From Deltaproteobacteria bacterium (GTDB taxonomy: Bacteria > Desulfobacterota > Desulfovibrionia > Desulfovibrionales > Desulfomicrobiaceae), in assembly GCA_009929795.1 (NCBI GenBank), contig RZZR01000007.1:1-43473 (forward strand): a stretch of DNA of 43,473 nt. Direction: 5' to 3'. Below, one piece after another: positions 23,920 through 32,753 of this stretch (positions are counted from its first letter, which is position 1; each line of letters begins with the position of its first letter). The position numbers and the translations under genes are program-made. The notes below the pieces were generated by a model, which was not told the origin of the DNA, did no database searches, and was given only the letters and a program-made list of their open reading frames with translations.

Positions 23920-26109
23920 ATGAACCCAAAAAAGATTGATGCGCTTCAGTTGACCCTGGCCATCTGCCTCCCCTTGGGCTTCGGCATCATCCTCAGACTC
24001 TTTGAAGCTCCACACTGGGACAATCCGAGCCTTTGGGTCGACGGCGAGCCCCTCATGGCCACCCACGACGCCTATGCCTGGCTGGCCGGGGCCGAAGGTG
24101 CGGGGCGACTGACGGGGCAGCCTCTTTCTTTGCTGCTCAAATACTTGGCCATGTTCACCGGGATTGACACCGGGGTCCTCTTCTTCTGGCTTCCGGCCTT
24201 GGTGGCGCCCCTGGTGGCCGTTCCCGTGGTTCTCATTTGCCGCTTCTTCGGGGCCGTCGAGGCCGGAATCCCGGCCGGAGTCCTAGCCGCCTCAGGCTTC
24301 GGATTCTTGGCTCGGACCCGAATCGGGTATGGGGACACAGACATCTTGACCCTGTTTCTGCCCTTCATGCTTGTGGCCGCACTGATCTGGTGGCTGGAAT
24401 CGGGCATTGACGACCGGTGGCGAATCCGTTTCGCGCCCCTCTCCCACGATGCCCTGGCATCACGGTCTACTGGAGTGTTCCGGGCCCTGTCCGCCGGTCT
24501 CGTCTGGAATTTCTACCTCTGGTTCTATCCCAGCGCGTATCCCATCACTGTGACCGTCTTCGCCATCGCCGTGGCCGTGGCCCTCTGGCAATGGCAGGCC
24601 TCGCCACGGACGACTCTAGCCTTTCAGGCCGGGATTGTGGTCGCCTTGGGCCTTTTAGGATGGAAGGGAATACTCTTGGCCATTGCAGGCATCCTGGCCG
24701 AACCGCATCTGCGGGCTCGTCGCATCCGGCACTGGGTCGCGATCTTTTTGGCCCTGGTTCTGGCTCTCATCCTGTATCAACGGGGTTTGAACGCAATCTG
24801 GGGCATCGTCAGCCCGGTACTCGGCTACCTCAAACCCGAAGCGGCCCTGGAAACGGCCAACGCCTCGTTCCAACTCCCAGGGGTGGTCCAGAGTATCCGG
24901 GAGGCCCAAAATGTATCCATCACCGAACTCGGGTCTAGGCTGGCATGGCTTTTCATCTATTTCGCTGCAGGGCTCTGCGGCTTGGCCGTGGTCTGTCTGC
25001 GACGGCCCCTAGCCCTGACCCTGCTGCCGTTCATCGGTCTGGCTCTGGCCTCGGTCAAGCTCGGCAACAGATTCACCATGTACGGGCCACCGGTCCTGGG
25101 CATTGGTCTCGGGCTCGGACTGGCCCTGCTCCTCCCCAGAATTCTGCCCAAGCCGGCCAGGGCAAGATGGCTGGTCCAAATTATTCTGGCCGTGGCCTTG
25201 GCCTGGCCGGCCGTTCAACTCTCCAGACAGTTCAGGCCAGGTCCCATCTTGCCCAACGTCTTTGCCCAGACTCTTCTGGATCTGAGAGAGAATTCATCAG
25301 AAGACGCCCAGCTCTGGCAATGGTGGGACTACGGCTATGCCGCCCAGTACTATTCCCAAAGAAGGTCCTTTGGCGACGGAGGAGATCATGAGGGCCCACA
25401 CCTCTATCCCCTGGCCGTGGCCCATGCCACGGCCGCTCCTCTGCAGGCAGCCCAGACCATACTCTTGGTTGCCGCCACCCAGCAGGAGCAATGGGCCGAA
25501 TGGTCCGCCCAGGGCAAGACTCCGACCAATCCTGAAGGAACGATACCGTATTATCCGACAGATCCCGTACTTCCCTTGCGAGGGATGACCGGATCTGAGG
25601 CCGCGGAGTTCATGGCCTCCCTGGCCACAAAACGCCAAACCTGGCCCCACGACCTGCCCGATCAACTTTTGGTGCTTTCCTGGGAAAATCTCCGCCTAGC
25701 CTATTGGATCTGCACCTTTGGCAACTGGGATCTGGCCACGGAAAAAAGCCGGGGCGGAGGCATCCAGGCCCTGACCGGACAGGCCAAATTCGACACCAAA
25801 CAGGGCCTGGTCATCCTGCCCCAGGGCACCGTCGAACTGAAGACAATGAGGGCCATTGATGACAAAGGCCTTCGTGAAACGGCCTGGAAACGCTCCAAAG
25901 GCTTCCATCTTTTGATCAACAATCTCAGCCGGGAGGCCTTCCTGATGGACGACCTGGTCCACGACTCCATGCTTGTACAAATGCTCCTGACCGATCCCGA
26001 ATCATTTTCATCGGAATTTGAGCTCGTCCTGGACCGATTCCCTTGGAATCGCGTATACCGAGTCCGCTCCGAATCATTCCCCGGACGCCACGAATCCGCT
26101 AACGAATAA
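23920..26109 (+). CDS. STT3/PglB-type oligosaccharyltransferase
   Basis: A 729-residue membrane protein that should transfer a lipid-linked oligosaccharide to asparagine (N-glycosylation) at the outer face of the inner membrane. About 13 membrane helices fill residues 10-430, followed by a soluble domain. Catalytic signs are Asp50 in ATHDAYAW, Asp139 and Asp141 in GYGDTDI, Glu336 in SITELG (TIxE-type loop), and WWDYG at residues 468-472 for sequon recognition. These are spaced as in Campylobacter PglB. STT3 homologues are known in Desulfovibrio and Campylobacter. No glycan-assembly cluster is adjacent; the nearest glycosyltransferase is about 8 kb away. The acceptor proteins are unknown. Confidence 0.93.
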   Translation: MNPKKIDALQLTLAICLPLGFGIILRLFEAPHWDNPSLWVDGEPLMATHDAYAWLAGAEGAGRLTGQPLSLLLKYLAMFTGIDTGVLFFWLPALVAPLVAVPVVLICRFFGAVEAGIPAGVLAASGFGFLARTRIGYGDTDILTLFLPFMLVAALIWWLESGIDDRWRIRFAPLSHDALASRSTGVFRALSAGLVWNFYLWFYPSAYPITVTVFAIAVAVALWQWQASPRTTLAFQAGIVVALGLLGWKGILLAIAGILAEPHLRARRIRHWVAIFLALVLALILYQRGLNAIWGIVSPVLGYLKPEAALETANASFQLPGVVQSIREAQNVSITELGSRLAWLFIYFAAGLCGLAVVCLRRPLALTLLPFIGLALASVKLGNRFTMYGPPVLGIGLGLGLALLLPRILPKPARARWLVQIILAVALAWPAVQLSRQFRPGPILPNVFAQTLLDLRENSSEDAQLWQWWDYGYAAQYYSQRRSFGDGGDHEGPHLYPLAVAHATAAPLQAAQTILLVAATQQEQWAEWSAQGKTPTNPEGTIPYYPTDPVLPLRGMTGSEAAEFMASLATKRQTWPHDLPDQLLVLSWENLRLAYWICTFGNWDLATEKSRGGGIQALTGQAKFDTKQGLVILPQGTVELKTMRAIDDKGLRETAWKRSKGFHLLINNLSREAFLMDDLVHDSMLVQMLLTDPESFSSEFELVLDRFPWNRVYRVRSESFPGRHESANE

Positions 26110-26220: not shown

Positions 26221-27093
26221 ATGTCACAACCCTCCTTCGAAACGCTGAATCTTCGCAAAACCCCCAAGATATCCGACAAGGAATTTGTGGACTTGCGAAA
26301 TTTCATTTACGAAAGCACAGGCATAGATATTCCGGAAAAACGAAAATATCTTCTGGAGACCAGACTTGGCACCCGTCTCAAGGACCTGAGCCTGAATACC
26401 TTTGGCGACTACTTCAACTATCTGAAGTTCGACCCCGGCAAAACCCGGGAGATGGAGAATCTCTTCCAGCAGATCACAACCAACGAAACCAGCCTGTTTA
26501 GGGACGTCAAGCAGCTCCAGGTTTTCGAAGACTTTGTTCTCAAGGATATCCTGGAACGCCAGGCTTCTACCAAGGAACTCAACATCTGGTCGGCCGGCTG
26601 CTCCTCCGGCGAGGAGCCGTACACCTTGGGCATCATGCTTCATGAGGCCCTGCGCATGGCCATTATCGGCTGGAGAGTCAGGATCACCGCCAACGATCTG
26701 TCCTCTGCCATGCTGGAAAAGGCCAGACGCGGTGTGTACAATGACTACGCCATCCGGACCACACCTCCGGACATTCTGAACAAGTACTTCACCAAGGAGA
26801 CGGACGGCTACAAAATTCATCCGAAAGTCGCCAAACTGGTGACCTTCTCCCAGATCAATCTCAACGACCGTCTGGCCCTCAAAAAAATTCCCAAATCACA
26901 CGTGGTGTTCTGCCGAAACGTCATCATCTATTTCGACGATGAAATGAAAAAAAAGGTCATCTCTGCTTTTTACGACAATCTCCATCCCGACGGGTATCTT
27001 GTGCTCGGACATTCCGAAAGCATCCACAAGATCAGTCGGTCGTTCCAGCCGGTCATGAAGCCCGGCGGGATTGTCTACAAACGCATGAGTTGA
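26221..27093 (+). CDS. cheR: CheR-type chemotaxis methyltransferase
   Basis: A 290-residue SAM-dependent methyltransferase that should methylate glutamates on chemoreceptors. The N-terminal helical domain (about 15-85) is followed by WSAGCSSGEEPYTLGIML (SAM motif I, about 122-140), ITANDLSSAMLEKARRG and NVIIYFDDEMKKKV. TTNETSLFRD is the usual CheR loop. An alternative GTG at 26167 has GGAG four bases upstream and adds 18 residues. I prefer the ATG because a weak promoter-like TTGACG-N17-TACGAA at 26154-26182 would place the transcript start after that GTG. It opens a run of signalling genes. Confidence 0.9.
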   Translation: MSQPSFETLNLRKTPKISDKEFVDLRNFIYESTGIDIPEKRKYLLETRLGTRLKDLSLNTFGDYFNYLKFDPGKTREMENLFQQITTNETSLFRDVKQLQVFEDFVLKDILERQASTKELNIWSAGCSSGEEPYTLGIMLHEALRMAIIGWRVRITANDLSSAMLEKARRGVYNDYAIRTTPPDILNKYFTKETDGYKIHPKVAKLVTFSQINLNDRLALKKIPKSHVVFCRNVIIYFDDEMKKKVISAFYDNLHPDGYLVLGHSESIHKISRSFQPVMKPGGIVYKRMS

Positions 27094-27153
27094 GGGAAAC
27101 GATGCTCCCCCGGCCAACAATGATCGATACCCGTAACGACACGGAGCCATAGA

Positions 27154-28368
27154 GTGAATAAGGTCTGTTTGGAACATCTGGAAACCGGCATGGTTCTGGC
27201 CAAGGACATCCCTGGCCTTGATGGCGGCGTCTTCATGGCCAAGGGAACCTGTCTCGATCCCGGCAGCATCGAGGCCCTGGACGATCTCGGCGCTCCCTTC
27301 GTCTTTGTGACGCCCGGGCATGACGATACCTCGCTCGCCGTGTCCAGGACCGAGGACTACGTCGCCCGTTTCTTCGCCTATGTGAACCCGGACAACCCGG
27401 CCATCCTTGAGCTCTACCGACTGGTTCTTGAGCGGGCCTACAAATCGGTTTTCCCCAAATGGCTTTTGCCTTGCGAAAAGGATTTACGGGCCAAGAACGT
27501 CGAACATATGAAGGACTTGTTTTTCAAGGATCATGGCGACATAGACGAACTGGTTCGTCACGAGACCGAGTTGGCCTCCTTTCCCGACGTCTATTTCAAG
27601 ATCAAGGAAATCCTCGACTCACCGACCAGTTCGGCCGCCGACATCGCCAAGGTCGTCGCCAGCGATGTCGGCTTGTCGGCCAAACTCCTGCGCCTGGTGA
27701 ACAGCTCCCTCTTCTCGTTCAGTTCAAAGATCGATTCAGTGACCCACGCCGTTTCTCTCATTGGTACCCGAGAGCTGGCCACCCTGGCCCTCGGCATCTC
27801 CACCATCAATTTTTTCAAGGACATCCCGCCAGAACTCATCGACATGAAAGTCTTCTGGCGGCACTCCCTGAGTTGCGGGGTTTTCGGCAAGCTCATCGCC
27901 GGGCAGATCCCTGAATTTAAGGCCGATAAATTTTTTACGGCCGGCCTGCTTCATGACTGCGGCAGACTCATCATGTACAAAAACATGCCCTACGCTTCGG
28001 TGCAGGCCTTGTTGAGCGCCAGGACGGAGATGCTCCCTCTGGTCGATGCCGAACAGCAAATTCTGGGTTTCAATCACACGGAGGTGGCCCGCAAGCTCAT
28101 GGAGACGTGGTCGTTCCCGTCTAATCTGACGACAATCATTGGCGGACACCACGACCCCATGGCCTCCGATGAGCCGCGTGAGACGGCCGTCATCACTCTG
28201 GCCGATATCCTCGCCAATGCCGCAGCCATTTCATCCGGTGGGACGTTTGTCCTCCCGGCCCTTCCGGACGATGCTTGGGAAATTCTCGGCCTGAAGCCCG
28301 AAAAACTCAAGGCCATCCTCCAGGATCACGATCGATCGATCGCCGAAGTGACCGCGGTTTTCCTATAG
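27154..28368 (+). CDS. HDOD-domain signalling protein
   Basis: A 404-residue cytosolic protein. The first 60 residues, with CLEHLETGMVLAKDIPGLDG and FMAKGTCLDPGSIEAL, resemble the DUF3391-type N-domain of HD-GYP/HDOD proteins. The HDOD domain follows (about 140-340), with LASFPDVYFKIKEIL, LLRLVNSSLFSF, THAVSLIGTRELATLAL, LLHDCGRLIMY, FNHTEVARKLMETW and GGHHDP. Some HD-type ligands remain (HDCGR, HH), but HDOD domains generally lack phosphodiesterase activity and act as signalling scaffolds. The start is a GTG with a purine-rich upstream. It lies between cheR and cheX, so a regulatory role in the same pathway is inferred. Confidence 0.87.
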   Translation: MNKVCLEHLETGMVLAKDIPGLDGGVFMAKGTCLDPGSIEALDDLGAPFVFVTPGHDDTSLAVSRTEDYVARFFAYVNPDNPAILELYRLVLERAYKSVFPKWLLPCEKDLRAKNVEHMKDLFFKDHGDIDELVRHETELASFPDVYFKIKEILDSPTSSAADIAKVVASDVGLSAKLLRLVNSSLFSFSSKIDSVTHAVSLIGTRELATLALGISTINFFKDIPPELIDMKVFWRHSLSCGVFGKLIAGQIPEFKADKFFTAGLLHDCGRLIMYKNMPYASVQALLSARTEMLPLVDAEQQILGFNHTEVARKLMETWSFPSNLTTIIGGHHDPMASDEPRETAVITLADILANAAAISSGGTFVLPALPDDAWEILGLKPEKLKAILQDHDRSIAEVTAVFL

Positions 28369-28453
28369 TCCGGCGTATCGCCCTGACGGATTCATCCGAT
28401 CTTGAAACGCTGGGTTCTCGTTGATCACCCATACAGGACCAGGCCAAGAACCT

Positions 28454-28936
28454 ATGTCCTTTCACTATGATGTAAATTTTATCAATCCCTTTCTCGAAGG
28501 CGTTCTGAACGTCTTGTCCACAATGGCCAACGTCGAGGCCCGGCCGGGCAAACCGTTCCTGAATAAAAAGAGAAAAGCCTTAGGCGACGTGACCGGAGTC
28601 ATCGACGTCAGCGGATACGCCAGGGGCACCATCGCCCTGTCTTTGTCCAAAGAGTCCATCCTGAAAATCGTCAACAACATGCTCTACGAAAACTACACGG
28701 AGATAGACGACCAGATCATGGACGCCGTAGGAGAACTCACGAACATGATCACCGGCCAGGCCCGGGCCAAACTCTCCGAGCAGGGTATGAGCTTCCAGGC
28801 CTCCACCCCTCACGTGGTCAACGGCAAGGGTGTTAAGGTCGAACACATCGAAACGGCACCGATTCTGGCCATTCCGTTCCAGACCCCGGACGGAAACTTC
28901 ACAGTCGAAGTATGCTTCACCGAGAACGAAACCTGA
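28454..28936 (+). CDS. cheX: CheX-family CheY-P phosphatase
   Basis: A 160-residue CheC/CheX/FliY-family protein. Its active helix reads DAVGELTNMITGQAR, with Glu94 and Asn97 forming the ExxN motif that removes phosphate from CheY-P. A single such motif and this size fit CheX, which dimerises through its strands. The ATG at 28454 is preferred: the residues before it in the open frame look non-coding. It lies in the cheR-HDOD-cheX-REC/TPR run. No cheA or cheY gene is in the window, so its partner is elsewhere. Confidence 0.9.
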   Translation: MSFHYDVNFINPFLEGVLNVLSTMANVEARPGKPFLNKKRKALGDVTGVIDVSGYARGTIALSLSKESILKIVNNMLYENYTEIDDQIMDAVGELTNMITGQARAKLSEQGMSFQASTPHVVNGKGVKVEHIETAPILAIPFQTPDGNFTVEVCFTENET

Positions 28937-28937
28937 G

Positions 28938-30131
28938 ATGACTCGTACAACTCAACCCATGAGAATCAACCGTCTCGGGATACAAACCACTGACCAACCT
29001 CGAAGTGGAGCCAAATCAGGCAATCCCCGCAACGAACCCCCGAAAATAATATCTACGGTCATTGCCACGTCCTCGGAAATCAATTTCGAAGTCGACAGTG
29101 AAAACGTCAGGCGACTCGGCTTTCTCCTCTGCAGTCGATTCTCCTCATCCTCGGCTGTGCTTGACTACATCCGATACAACAAGGTTCCCCTGATCGTTCT
29201 GGACTCCAACATCGACGACGTCCCCCTACACGATCTCATCTACGCCATCCGCAAACTCCTCAAGGCCGAGTACTCACAAATCGTGGTCATCTCGGACCAG
29301 GCCGACGAAAATTTCGTTCTTGATGCGGTCATGGCCGGTTGCACGGGCTTTGTCCTCCGGCCCTACACCTTCGAAACCTTGAGCAAGCACGTCCGTCACA
29401 AGCCCGATGTCGACGAAATCAGCCTCGACGAGCAACAACTCGCCCAGGCTCAGGCCAGCCTGAGCACCGGACAATTCAACGAAGCCATCCAGAATTTCGA
29501 AGAACTTGTCGAGAACGCCGACAGGGAAAACAGGGACGAAGCCCGGGAATACTTCGATCTGGGGGCCAAATGTCTTCTTGAAAAAAAATTCGGCAAGGCC
29601 ATCATCGCCTTCAACAACACGCTACGGATCAATCAACTTTACATCAAAGCCTACGAAGGCCTGGCCGGGGCCTTCAAGGGCAAGGGCGACCTGGAAAAAT
29701 ATCAGCTCTATCTCCAGAAGGCCGCTGACGAATATGCCCGGATGGACAATTTCGCCCAGGTCAAAAGAATCTTCGGCGAGATACTCAAAAGGGACATCCA
29801 CGCCCCGAATCCCTATAACACCCTGGGCATTGAACTCCGTCACAAGAAGATGTTCAACGAGGCCATCAGCGCCTACCAAAACGCCCTCAAACTGAGTCCC
29901 GTAGACGAGAACATCTTTTTCAACCTGGCCAAGGCCCACCTGTTCGCGCGCAACTACGAACAATCCCTGGAATCCTTGAAACAGGCGTTGAAACTCAATG
30001 CCGATCACACAGAATCGGCGGCACTCTACACCAAAATGACGGGGAAAACGTGGGAAGAGGACCCCCGTGGGTCCTTATTGGACAAGTATCTTCTATCCGA
30101 TGCGAGTGAAAGCCAGCACAACGAGACATGA
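28938..30131 (+). CDS. Degenerate receiver domain fused to TPR repeats
   Basis: A 397-residue two-part protein. Residues about 36-150 have the receiver fold: an Asp at 89 in PLIVLDSNID (phosphorylation site), Ser119 in IVVISDQ, and RPYTF at 141, where active receivers have Lys. The N-terminal acidic pair of receivers is replaced by TVIATSSE, so phosphorylation is unlikely. The rest (about 170-385) is a string of TPR helices with motifs such as YNTLGIELRHKKMFNEAISA and AYQNALKLSP. The start is taken as the ATG at 28938, one base after the cheX stop. It overlaps the next gene by ATGA. A scaffold role for the signalling module is inferred. Confidence 0.85.
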   Translation: MTRTTQPMRINRLGIQTTDQPRSGAKSGNPRNEPPKIISTVIATSSEINFEVDSENVRRLGFLLCSRFSSSSAVLDYIRYNKVPLIVLDSNIDDVPLHDLIYAIRKLLKAEYSQIVVISDQADENFVLDAVMAGCTGFVLRPYTFETLSKHVRHKPDVDEISLDEQQLAQAQASLSTGQFNEAIQNFEELVENADRENRDEAREYFDLGAKCLLEKKFGKAIIAFNNTLRINQLYIKAYEGLAGAFKGKGDLEKYQLYLQKAADEYARMDNFAQVKRIFGEILKRDIHAPNPYNTLGIELRHKKMFNEAISAYQNALKLSPVDENIFFNLAKAHLFARNYEQSLESLKQALKLNADHTESAALYTKMTGKTWEEDPRGSLLDKYLLSDASESQHNET

Positions 30132-30346
30132 ACGTATCTGATCAGACCACAATACGGCCATGCCCGATCTGCGGAAAAATGGTCGACCCCGGCAAGGAGC
30201 GGCACACCCTCTACCAATGCCGAAACTTCCTCCTCGAACTCTATTTCAAGGAGATGAACCCTGCAAGGAGGATAGCCGTTGAAAAACGTATCGACCTCCT
30301 AAACGAGAGGCTCTCCCTCCACGGAAAGAACCTACTGGACACCTGA
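30128..30346 (+). CDS. Small zinc-ribbon-like protein
   Basis: A 72-residue protein with an apparent metal site, CPICGKMVDPGKERHTLYQC, in which Cys12, Cys15 and a later Cys and His could bind zinc, followed by a charged helix with KEMNPARRIAVEKRID. The ATG overlaps the stop of the TPR gene by four bases, so translation is coupled. No family was recognised. It converges with the Lon-like protease; only 13 bases separate the two stops. Confidence 0.65.
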   Translation: MNVSDQTTIRPCPICGKMVDPGKERHTLYQCRNFLLELYFKEMNPARRIAVEKRIDLLNERLSLHGKNLLDT

Positions 30347-30359
30347 AGATCTTTTTCGA

Positions 30360-32753
30360 TCAGGTTCTCCGCCTCGGCTTCTTGACTCGCTCGTCAGCCA
30401 AGGCCGCCAGTTCCGAGAGCCTACGGTCGACGGCCTCGTAAATCGAGTTCTTGGAAAATCTACCGTTTTTGAGCCGCGCCCCGGCCCTTCTCCCAGTCAG
30501 AATCTCCAGTGCCTCCTCAATGGTTTGAACCGGAAAGATGTGAAACATCCCGGCGGCCACAGCCTCGACCACCTCGTCCCGCATCATGAGGTTAATGACG
30601 TTGTCACGGGGTATGAGCACCCCCTGCTCCCCAGTCAATCCCCGTCTCCGACAGACCTCGAAGAACCCCTCCACCTTTCTGGCTACTTCCCCGACGGCCA
30701 TAATGGCTCCCGACTGACTGACCGCTCCGGTAAATGCGTATCCCAGATTGATGGGAACCCCTGAAAGGGCCGAAAGCAATGCCGCCAGCTCAGCTCCGGA
30801 GGCCGAATCGCCGTCCACATGGGCGTAGCTCTGTTCGAAGCACAGACTCCCACTCATCACCAGGGGCTTGTTTCGGGCAAATAAATCCAAAAGGTAACTC
30901 TTGAGAATCATCATCCCTTTGGTATGGATGGGCCCTCCGAGTTCGGCCTCCCGTTCCAGGTCAAGAATACCGCCGTGCCCGACCCCCACTATACACGATA
31001 TCTCGTGGGGCAACCCCATGACGTATCCGCCGATTTCACTCACCGAGAGGCCGTTGGCCCGACCCGCGGCAGAACCCTGGGTTCTGACCTTAATCACCTC
31101 CCGGTCATAATCGTCCAAAAATTCCTGTTCGTAGAGATTGGCCCGGTAAAGCTGATCCTCCAGGGCCTCGTTCACCGATTCGAGGCCCACTGAGGACCTC
31201 CCAGACAGTCCTGCCAAGGCGTTGGCCTCGATCATCACATCACGGATGCGGGAAAATTCCAGGGATAATTTCTGCTGATCCTGAGCCAGCCGGGAACTGG
31301 CATCGACCAGCCTGGCTAAGCCGTCCCTGGAAAAGGGCCGCAAGGAGGCCTCCTCGGCAATAACCAGCAGATGACCGATGAAATGCTCGATGGTCTCCGG
31401 ATTCCGGTCGACCCGTTCCTGGATATGGGCCTTGAGCTTGAAAAACTTGCCAAAACGGTCGTCGTTGAGAAGTAACGTCTCGTACATGGCGTCGGTTCCG
31501 ACTAGGATGATCTTCAGATCCAAGGGAATGGGTTCGGGCTCCAGGGTTTTTGTCCTGACCAGATCATAGTGGTCCGTCGGATCCTCGAGCCCCGCCTGTC
31601 GGGATCGAAGGCACCTGAGCAAACCCTCCCAGGAAAGGGGATGGGTCAGGAGGTCCTCGGCGTGAAGGACGAGGAATCCGCCGTTGGCCCGATGGATGCT
31701 TCCCGGTTTCAGGAGGGTGAAGTCCGTGTAGTAGGTGCCCAGCTCAGTTTCCCTCTCGATGCAACCGAGCAGATTGAAAAACGAGGGATTGTTTTCGACT
31801 ATAACCGGAGCCCCCCCGGTCTCCTCGTGGTCGACAAACAGATTGACCTCGTAGCGATAAAAGAAATTGTCAGCCACCAAGGACTCCGGCCCCTGATCCT
31901 GGCCAGGCTCCGGCCCCCGGAACCTGTGGATGTTGTCCAGCATGTCGGCCTTCATCCTGTCCAGGAAGGTCGTACTCTCTTCAGACCAGGAGGAATCCTG
32001 GCGGAAGGTCTCCAGTGCCCGGTCGATGACCACACTGCCGACTTTCCGGTCCAGTTCCCGCTCCTTGTCCTTCAGGGTCTGCTCCGCCCGATCGATCTGC
32101 CTGGACATGTCCATGACCTTATCCATGATCTCACCGGTCTCGGATTTCAGACGGCGACGAACCTCCGGGGTCAACTTCTCGTACTCCTCGGTCGTCAGAA
32201 CCTTCCCCTCCACCAGGGGGTAGAGGGACAGCCCTCCACCCTCGTCCAGATTGAGGCTAAAGCCGTTCCGCACGGCCGTCGCATCCATTGACTCCAGCAG
32301 ACCTTCCCGGGTCTGGTCGAACTCCTTGACCAGGTTGTCGTGCTGCCGGGCATAGCTCTCCTGCTCGAATTGCTCCGGGAGTTCTTCCCTGATCCGACGA
32401 ACCGCATCGGTCAGTTCCTGCTTGAAACGCCGACCTCGACCCGCCGGAAACCGAAGGGCTCTTGGACGATCCTGGTCCTGAAAATTATGAACATAGGCCC
32501 AGTCGTCGGGTCGGGACAAAGTGGCGGCCCTAGGGCCGAGAAAGGTCCTGACCAGATGGCTTCTGCCGAAGCCGGCCTCGCCAGCCACGAAGACGTTGTA
32601 CTCCATGCCGGGAATCTCAAGGGCCAGATTCAAGGCCCGAATGGCCCGGGGCTGGAAGGATACCTGCTCGTTTCGCGTCCGATCGGCCTTGACCTGCCTC
32701 GGATTGAGCCGCACCCGGAGATGGGATGGGGAAAGGGTCTGTTTTTTGGTCAT
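30360..32753 (-). CDS. Lon-like ATP-dependent protease (COG1067)
   Basis: A 797-residue cytoplasmic protease of the Lon-B-like/LonC group (AAA_32 plus Lon proteolytic domain). The N-terminal AAA core has a Walker-A variant GEAGFGRSH in which the usual Lys is Arg, a feature known in this COG. Walker B-type GGFLVLHAEDLL is at about 350. The S16 protease domain has the catalytic Ser650 in GDSASGAELAAL and Lys693 in GEVARKVEGF, spaced 43 residues like E. coli Lon. It probably degrades damaged proteins; substrates are unknown. The upstream neighbour, 39 bases away, is a small unknown gene on the same strand. Confidence 0.93.
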   Translation of the reverse strand: MTKKQTLSPSHLRVRLNPRQVKADRTRNEQVSFQPRAIRALNLALEIPGMEYNVFVAGEAGFGRSHLVRTFLGPRAATLSRPDDWAYVHNFQDQDRPRALRFPAGRGRRFKQELTDAVRRIREELPEQFEQESYARQHDNLVKEFDQTREGLLESMDATAVRNGFSLNLDEGGGLSLYPLVEGKVLTTEEYEKLTPEVRRRLKSETGEIMDKVMDMSRQIDRAEQTLKDKERELDRKVGSVVIDRALETFRQDSSWSEESTTFLDRMKADMLDNIHRFRGPEPGQDQGPESLVADNFFYRYEVNLFVDHEETGGAPVIVENNPSFFNLLGCIERETELGTYYTDFTLLKPGSIHRANGGFLVLHAEDLLTHPLSWEGLLRCLRSRQAGLEDPTDHYDLVRTKTLEPEPIPLDLKIILVGTDAMYETLLLNDDRFGKFFKLKAHIQERVDRNPETIEHFIGHLLVIAEEASLRPFSRDGLARLVDASSRLAQDQQKLSLEFSRIRDVMIEANALAGLSGRSSVGLESVNEALEDQLYRANLYEQEFLDDYDREVIKVRTQGSAAGRANGLSVSEIGGYVMGLPHEISCIVGVGHGGILDLEREAELGGPIHTKGMMILKSYLLDLFARNKPLVMSGSLCFEQSYAHVDGDSASGAELAALLSALSGVPINLGYAFTGAVSQSGAIMAVGEVARKVEGFFEVCRRRGLTGEQGVLIPRDNVINLMMRDEVVEAVAAGMFHIFPVQTIEEALEILTGRRAGARLKNGRFSKNSIYEAVDRRLSELAALADERVKKPRRRT

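Follow-up and report, generated by a model that had tools for sequence, protein, structure and literature searches.

A conserved cheR-HDOD-cheX operon of Desulfovibrionales next to a separate REC/TPR-CCHC gene pair

Several described systems share components with the locus studied here. In Desulfovibrio vulgaris, cheA3 stands at the end of an operon that also carries several chemotaxis genes and parA, and the cheA3 mutant shows a soft-agar motility defect, unlike two other cheA mutants (excerpted text of PMC3944678). The CheC/CheX/FliY phosphatases are reported to contact the active-site Lys of the receiver, and roles in CheX catalysis are assigned to an acidic residue and an Asn (excerpted text of PMC3035606). 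As for HDOD proteins, the available portion of PMC6543031 describes the domain as being without phosphodiesterase activity, places members of the family in attachment and flagellar control, and reports that one of them, SadB, binds c-di-GMP. In the open-licence literature on HDOD, CheX, CheR and chemotaxis in Desulfovibrio/Desulfobacterota, we found no description of a cheR-HDOD-cheX operon, and excerpted text of PMC3333781, PMC4395418 and PMC7698151 likewise contained nothing about it.

Two adjacent conserved units

The window analyzed here is a stretch of 43,473 nucleotides (contig RZZR01000007.1, positions 1 to 43,473) from a 3.17-Mb genome of 407 contigs that is 96.4% complete. A tight run of five genes on the + strand had been proposed in the initial annotation and was confirmed, with intergenic gaps of 60, 85, 1 and -4 bases. 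In order, these are cheR (26221-27093, 290 aa), an HDOD gene (27154-28368, 404 aa, GTG start), cheX (28454-28936, 160 aa), a gene for an atypical receiver with TPR repeats (REC/TPR; 28938-30131, 397 aa) and a gene for a small protein with a putative metal site (CCHC; 30128-30346, 72 aa). The family calls made for the first three products also held, as all their Pfam matches were above cut-off: PF01739 (6.6e-56) and PF03705, covering the SAM-binding and N-terminal domains, for CheR, of the receptor methyltransferase family, PF08668 (4.1e-61, 206 bits, cut-off 22.9) for the HDOD protein, and PF13690 (1.6e-25, 89.4 bits, cut-off 27) for CheX, of the CheY-P phosphatase family. Directly upstream of cheR, on the same strand, lies a gene for an STT3/PglB-like oligosaccharyltransferase (23920-26109), and on the other side a Lon-like protease gene (30360-32753) is oriented toward the five genes. 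Promoter-like matches at the locus were near chance (4 vs 2.3 expected) and terminator-like matches numbered 10 vs 5.2 expected, with none in either class being decisive.

The description of the locus as being without CheA or CheY applies to the locus only. No CheW-domain match is found on the window contig, and the five genes form no complete chemosensory cluster. The genome, however, contains 10 CheW-domain matches spread over several contigs, together with 10 MCP-signal matches and FliM/FliN, and one of the CheW-domain matches belongs to a protein that has all CheA domains.

To follow the five genes in relatives, each protein was searched in 61 genomes of the order, namely the window's own genome and 60 relatives. 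The genes cheR, HDOD and cheX were contiguous and in the same order in 14 of the 61 (G000, which is the window's own, G001, G024, G028, G029, G033, G035, G036, G037, G041, G044, G049, G053 and G059), and these 14 are spread over six genera; two further genomes (G050 and G060) carry CheR-HDOD without CheX. A scan of named contigs with the triad CheX alignment detected 424 relatives, the best 80 of which were kept, and the top 16 of these 80 loci all have cheR-HDOD-cheX. It should be considered that seven of the 16 are contigs already counted among the relatives, that one (L128) is fragmented and that in another (L123) CheR is partial; the 22 other triads referred to below are thus made up of 13 from the relatives and nine from additional named contigs. 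Gene maps of the fetched loci were drawn by simple ORF picking, such that small genes and start positions are rough. The cheR-HDOD-cheX triad is an old, conserved orphan chemotaxis operon of Desulfovibrionales, and the proposal of a dedicated adaptation module of unfamiliar layout stands for the first three genes, although not for a five-gene unit. In the f4 genomes (L074-L080), the triad is situated between the gene for ribosomal protein L27 and obg, an odd site for chemotaxis genes.

The last two genes follow a distribution of their own. The REC/TPR gene is present in 22 of the 61 genomes, the CCHC gene in 21 and both in 20, and the two adjoin each other both in the window and at 17 of the 20 REC/TPR loci that were fetched; a contig break divides the REC/TPR gene in G017, and G059 has the two genes on separate contigs. 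Around the pair in relatives are genes for Lon, a U32 peptidase, a GidA-type protein and a pseudouridine synthase, with no chemotaxis genes. In four of the f4 genomes, the Lon relatives adjoin the REC/TPR gene upstream, on the same strand.

That all five genes constitute one dedicated module, as the initial annotation had it, would be in line with the last two gaps (1 and -4 bases), which suggest a single transcript in this genome. Against this, the pair adjoins none of the 22 other triads (for one of which, L116, the sequence ends 115 bases downstream), and neither gene occurs in the flanks of the 16 best named triad loci. The same five-gene order, when sought in other genomes, was seen only here, as far as can be judged when the genus consists of this genome alone and offers no congener. 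Nor do the triad and the pair co-occur: across the 61 genomes, seven have the triad and REC/TPR, seven the triad only, 15 REC/TPR only and 32 neither (Fisher p 0.34). In G029, whose genome is a single contig, about 412 kb separates the triad (2.10 Mb) from the pair (2.51 Mb). On synteny and co-occurrence (61 genomes, 22 other triads), a five-gene module was therefore rejected, and we give it very little credence as an account of the locus, in which two conserved units adjoin. The pair, independent in relatives, would have come to lie beside cheX in this lineage. It represents a second conserved, uncharacterised unit.

Features of the encoded proteins

The CheX catalytic motif has the spacing D-x3-E-x2-N and is accompanied by a Pro. 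This signature, DAVGELTN with the Pro, is intact in 14 of 14 aligned sequences, that is, 13 triad members and the second copy of the window's own genome, with the triad CheX of L080 left out. The triad CheX proteins form a single clade (17 rows, SH-aLRT 99), and their PDB relatives include CheX structures. As CheX keeps the phosphatase signature, CheY-P hydrolysis is predicted for it. The second CheX of the genome is encoded on another contig (C19; L089:7057-9061), where it is followed, 1 base on, by a gene for a HEAT-repeat protein with a C-terminal receiver, both being situated downstream of a TolC-type outer-membrane gene.

The HDOD protein consists of a small N-terminal beta domain and an HDOD/HD domain, in which seven HD-type ligands (H237, H267, D268, H308, H332, H333 and D351) are invariant in 16 of 16 sequences. 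HDOD structures head the list of folds matching the model (pLDDT 87.9), the best being SadB (Z 24.6, rmsd 3.5 over 278 residues). HD-GYP phosphodiesterases are defined by a GYP motif. Although the HD-type ligands are present, this motif is absent after the HH ligand pair in the HDOD alignments, and HD-GYP structures are far below HDOD ones in structural score; an HD-GYP enzyme was thus ruled out.

For CheR, 70 sequences were gathered and 61 were used in the tree, after one had failed the blastp trim and seven duplicates of loci from the 61 genomes, as well as rows of 180 residues or fewer, had been left out; the partial and fragmented CheRs of L123 and L128 were likewise not used. The triad CheRs (23 rows, two of them from the CheR-HDOD pairs) form one clade with a support of 100. 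Their nearest non-triad relatives lie in clusters of the order HEAT-CheR-ParA-CheW-CheA (34 loci and the genome's own copy on contig C29), which the triad clade joins through a nesting branch with a support of 92, as obtained by a quick tree method. The simplest reading of this topology is that the triad CheR is an old duplicate of the cluster CheR. The two groups can be told apart by a short motif, FRD in 23 of 23 triad CheRs and FRN in 33 of 33 cluster CheRs. Pentapeptide-dependent CheRs are recognized by an insertion of the type found in the Salmonella enzyme. Since the triad CheR, like the cluster CheRs, is without this insertion, it is probably pentapeptide-independent. Further CheRs are encoded in the genome, and some of its chemoreceptors end in ...EEFERF, ...DDFERY and ...DNVELF (L107, L109 and L110, on contigs C48, C15 and C5), which resemble C-terminal CheR/CheB tethers.

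The receiver of the REC/TPR protein is weakly matched (PF00072, 29.7 bits, below the cut-off of 30.2), with TPRs alongside. It had been described as having lost its acidic pocket and Lys, and this is correct in that the acidic pair is gone and the Lys is replaced by Arg in 21 of 21 homologues. The phospho-acceptor Asp, however, is kept in 21 of 21 homologues and aligns opposite the CheY Asp, such that an aspartate-less receiver was ruled out. Because the receiver Lys that the phosphatases contact is Arg here, action of CheX on the REC/TPR protein is unlikely. One could still imagine that the operon captured REC/TPR and CCHC as CheX partners in this lineage, with REC/TPR titrating or redirecting CheX, so that the adaptation module would have five parts and be controlled by the HDOD protein through a nucleotide; we regard such a capture as highly improbable. 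The 72-aa CCHC protein had no family above cut-off in Pfam or NCBIfam, and its Cys and His residues are conserved across 19 aligned sequences.

A candidate target array and the role of the triad

The HEAT-CheR-ParA-CheW-CheA cluster is found in 35 of the 61 genomes, including 14 of the 14 with the triad, an association with a naive p of 1e-4 that should be read with care, as it ignores relatedness and the 14 triad genomes fall in six genera. In 21 of the 35 genomes the triad is absent, and the cluster therefore works without it. Each cluster has its own CheR, and many have CheB and a REC-GAF-HD protein upstream. Exceptions to the full gene set are L230, which is clipped at the contig end, L249 and L250, where neither ParA nor CheW was matched, and L256, which is without HEAT in the available stretch. 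Judged by parA and the terminal cheA only, the cluster is likely the same as the D. vulgaris cheA3 operon. FliM/FliN are present in 14 of 14 triad genomes and in 55 of the 61 overall.

With moderate confidence, we propose that the triad is an unlinked cassette for adaptation (CheR) and signal termination (CheX) that serves a cheA3-like array and includes an HDOD regulator, with the REC/TPR pair being separate. CheR would methylate the chemoreceptors of the array encoded by the genome's HEAT-CheR-ParA-CheW-CheA cluster, and CheX would hydrolyse the CheY-P produced there. As a regulatory scaffold, the HDOD protein would adjust how active the two enzymes are, and it may do so by sensing a nucleotide, for instance c-di-GMP, in the manner of SadB. 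It should be noted that the cluster's own CheR, often with its own CheB, and the second CheX and other CheRs of the genome are points against assigning the triad to this array.

Instead, the triad could be an unlinked source from which all arrays are generally supplied with CheR and CheX, with no preference for the cheA3-like one. In other bacteria, the targets of CheR and CheX are soluble or shared, and the scatter of CheW-domain matches over several contigs and the flagellar switch genes of every triad genome fit such a supply; the descent of the triad CheR from the CheR of one cluster type, and the presence of this cluster in every triad genome, do not, and we find a general supply rather unlikely. 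Less probable still is an arrangement centered on the HDOD protein, in which CheR and CheX were recruited to act, outside chemotaxis, on partners in a pathway of surface attachment or c-di-GMP. The complete HD-type ligand set, the SadB-like fold and the attachment and flagellar functions of HDOD proteins (as given in part of PMC6543031) are consistent with this arrangement, but CheR and CheX retain their family features and CheR derives from a chemosensory cluster.

If a cassette for the cheA3-like array is the correct reading, then a chemotaxis system has duplicated its methyltransferase and moved the copy to a separately controlled operon, together with a phosphatase and an HDOD regulator. 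This would link second-messenger signalling to receptor adaptation in sulfate reducers, in which motility has been tied to the cheA3 operon.

Comparison with known systems

Among the closest systems is the HEAT-ParA cluster, the source of the CheRs most closely related to that of the triad. It differs in that it forms a full sensory cluster, CheA and CheW included, but has no CheX, and its HD protein is of the REC-GAF-HD type rather than the triad-type HDOD. The same three families as in the triad are combined in single chemotaxis operons of other Desulfobacterota, with CheX, CheR, CheD, HDOD and CheB (L136, L141 and L143), yet the gene order is different and CheD, CheB and a second CheX are added; their CheR and HDOD proteins score ~210 and ~145 bits, as compared to ~450-550 and ~510-700 bits for triad members. 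In L143, the operon (CheX/CheR/CheD/HDOD/second CheX/CheB) adjoins FliL.

CheX matches occur in 129 of the 297 genomes of a phylum sample, and CheX beside a single receiver gene is a common arrangement: among the best 80 of the 424 CheX relatives, 44 of the 64 non-triad loci have a receiver match at most 700 bases from CheX. While the phosphatase family is the same, the triad CheX is without a nearby receiver, except for the unrelated REC/TPR gene in the window. SadB, the Pseudomonas HDOD motility regulator and closest structural match of the triad HDOD protein, has an N-terminal YbaK-like domain (available portion of PMC6543031) where the triad protein has a short beta domain, and the triad protein, in turn, shares its operon with CheR and CheX. 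Finally, the scattered F3-class cheX/cheY/cheZ genes of Campylobacterota resemble the triad as accessory genes kept in a fixed order away from the main cluster, although the genes and the lineage are different and HDOD is not mentioned in the excerpted text of that source (PMC9321776).
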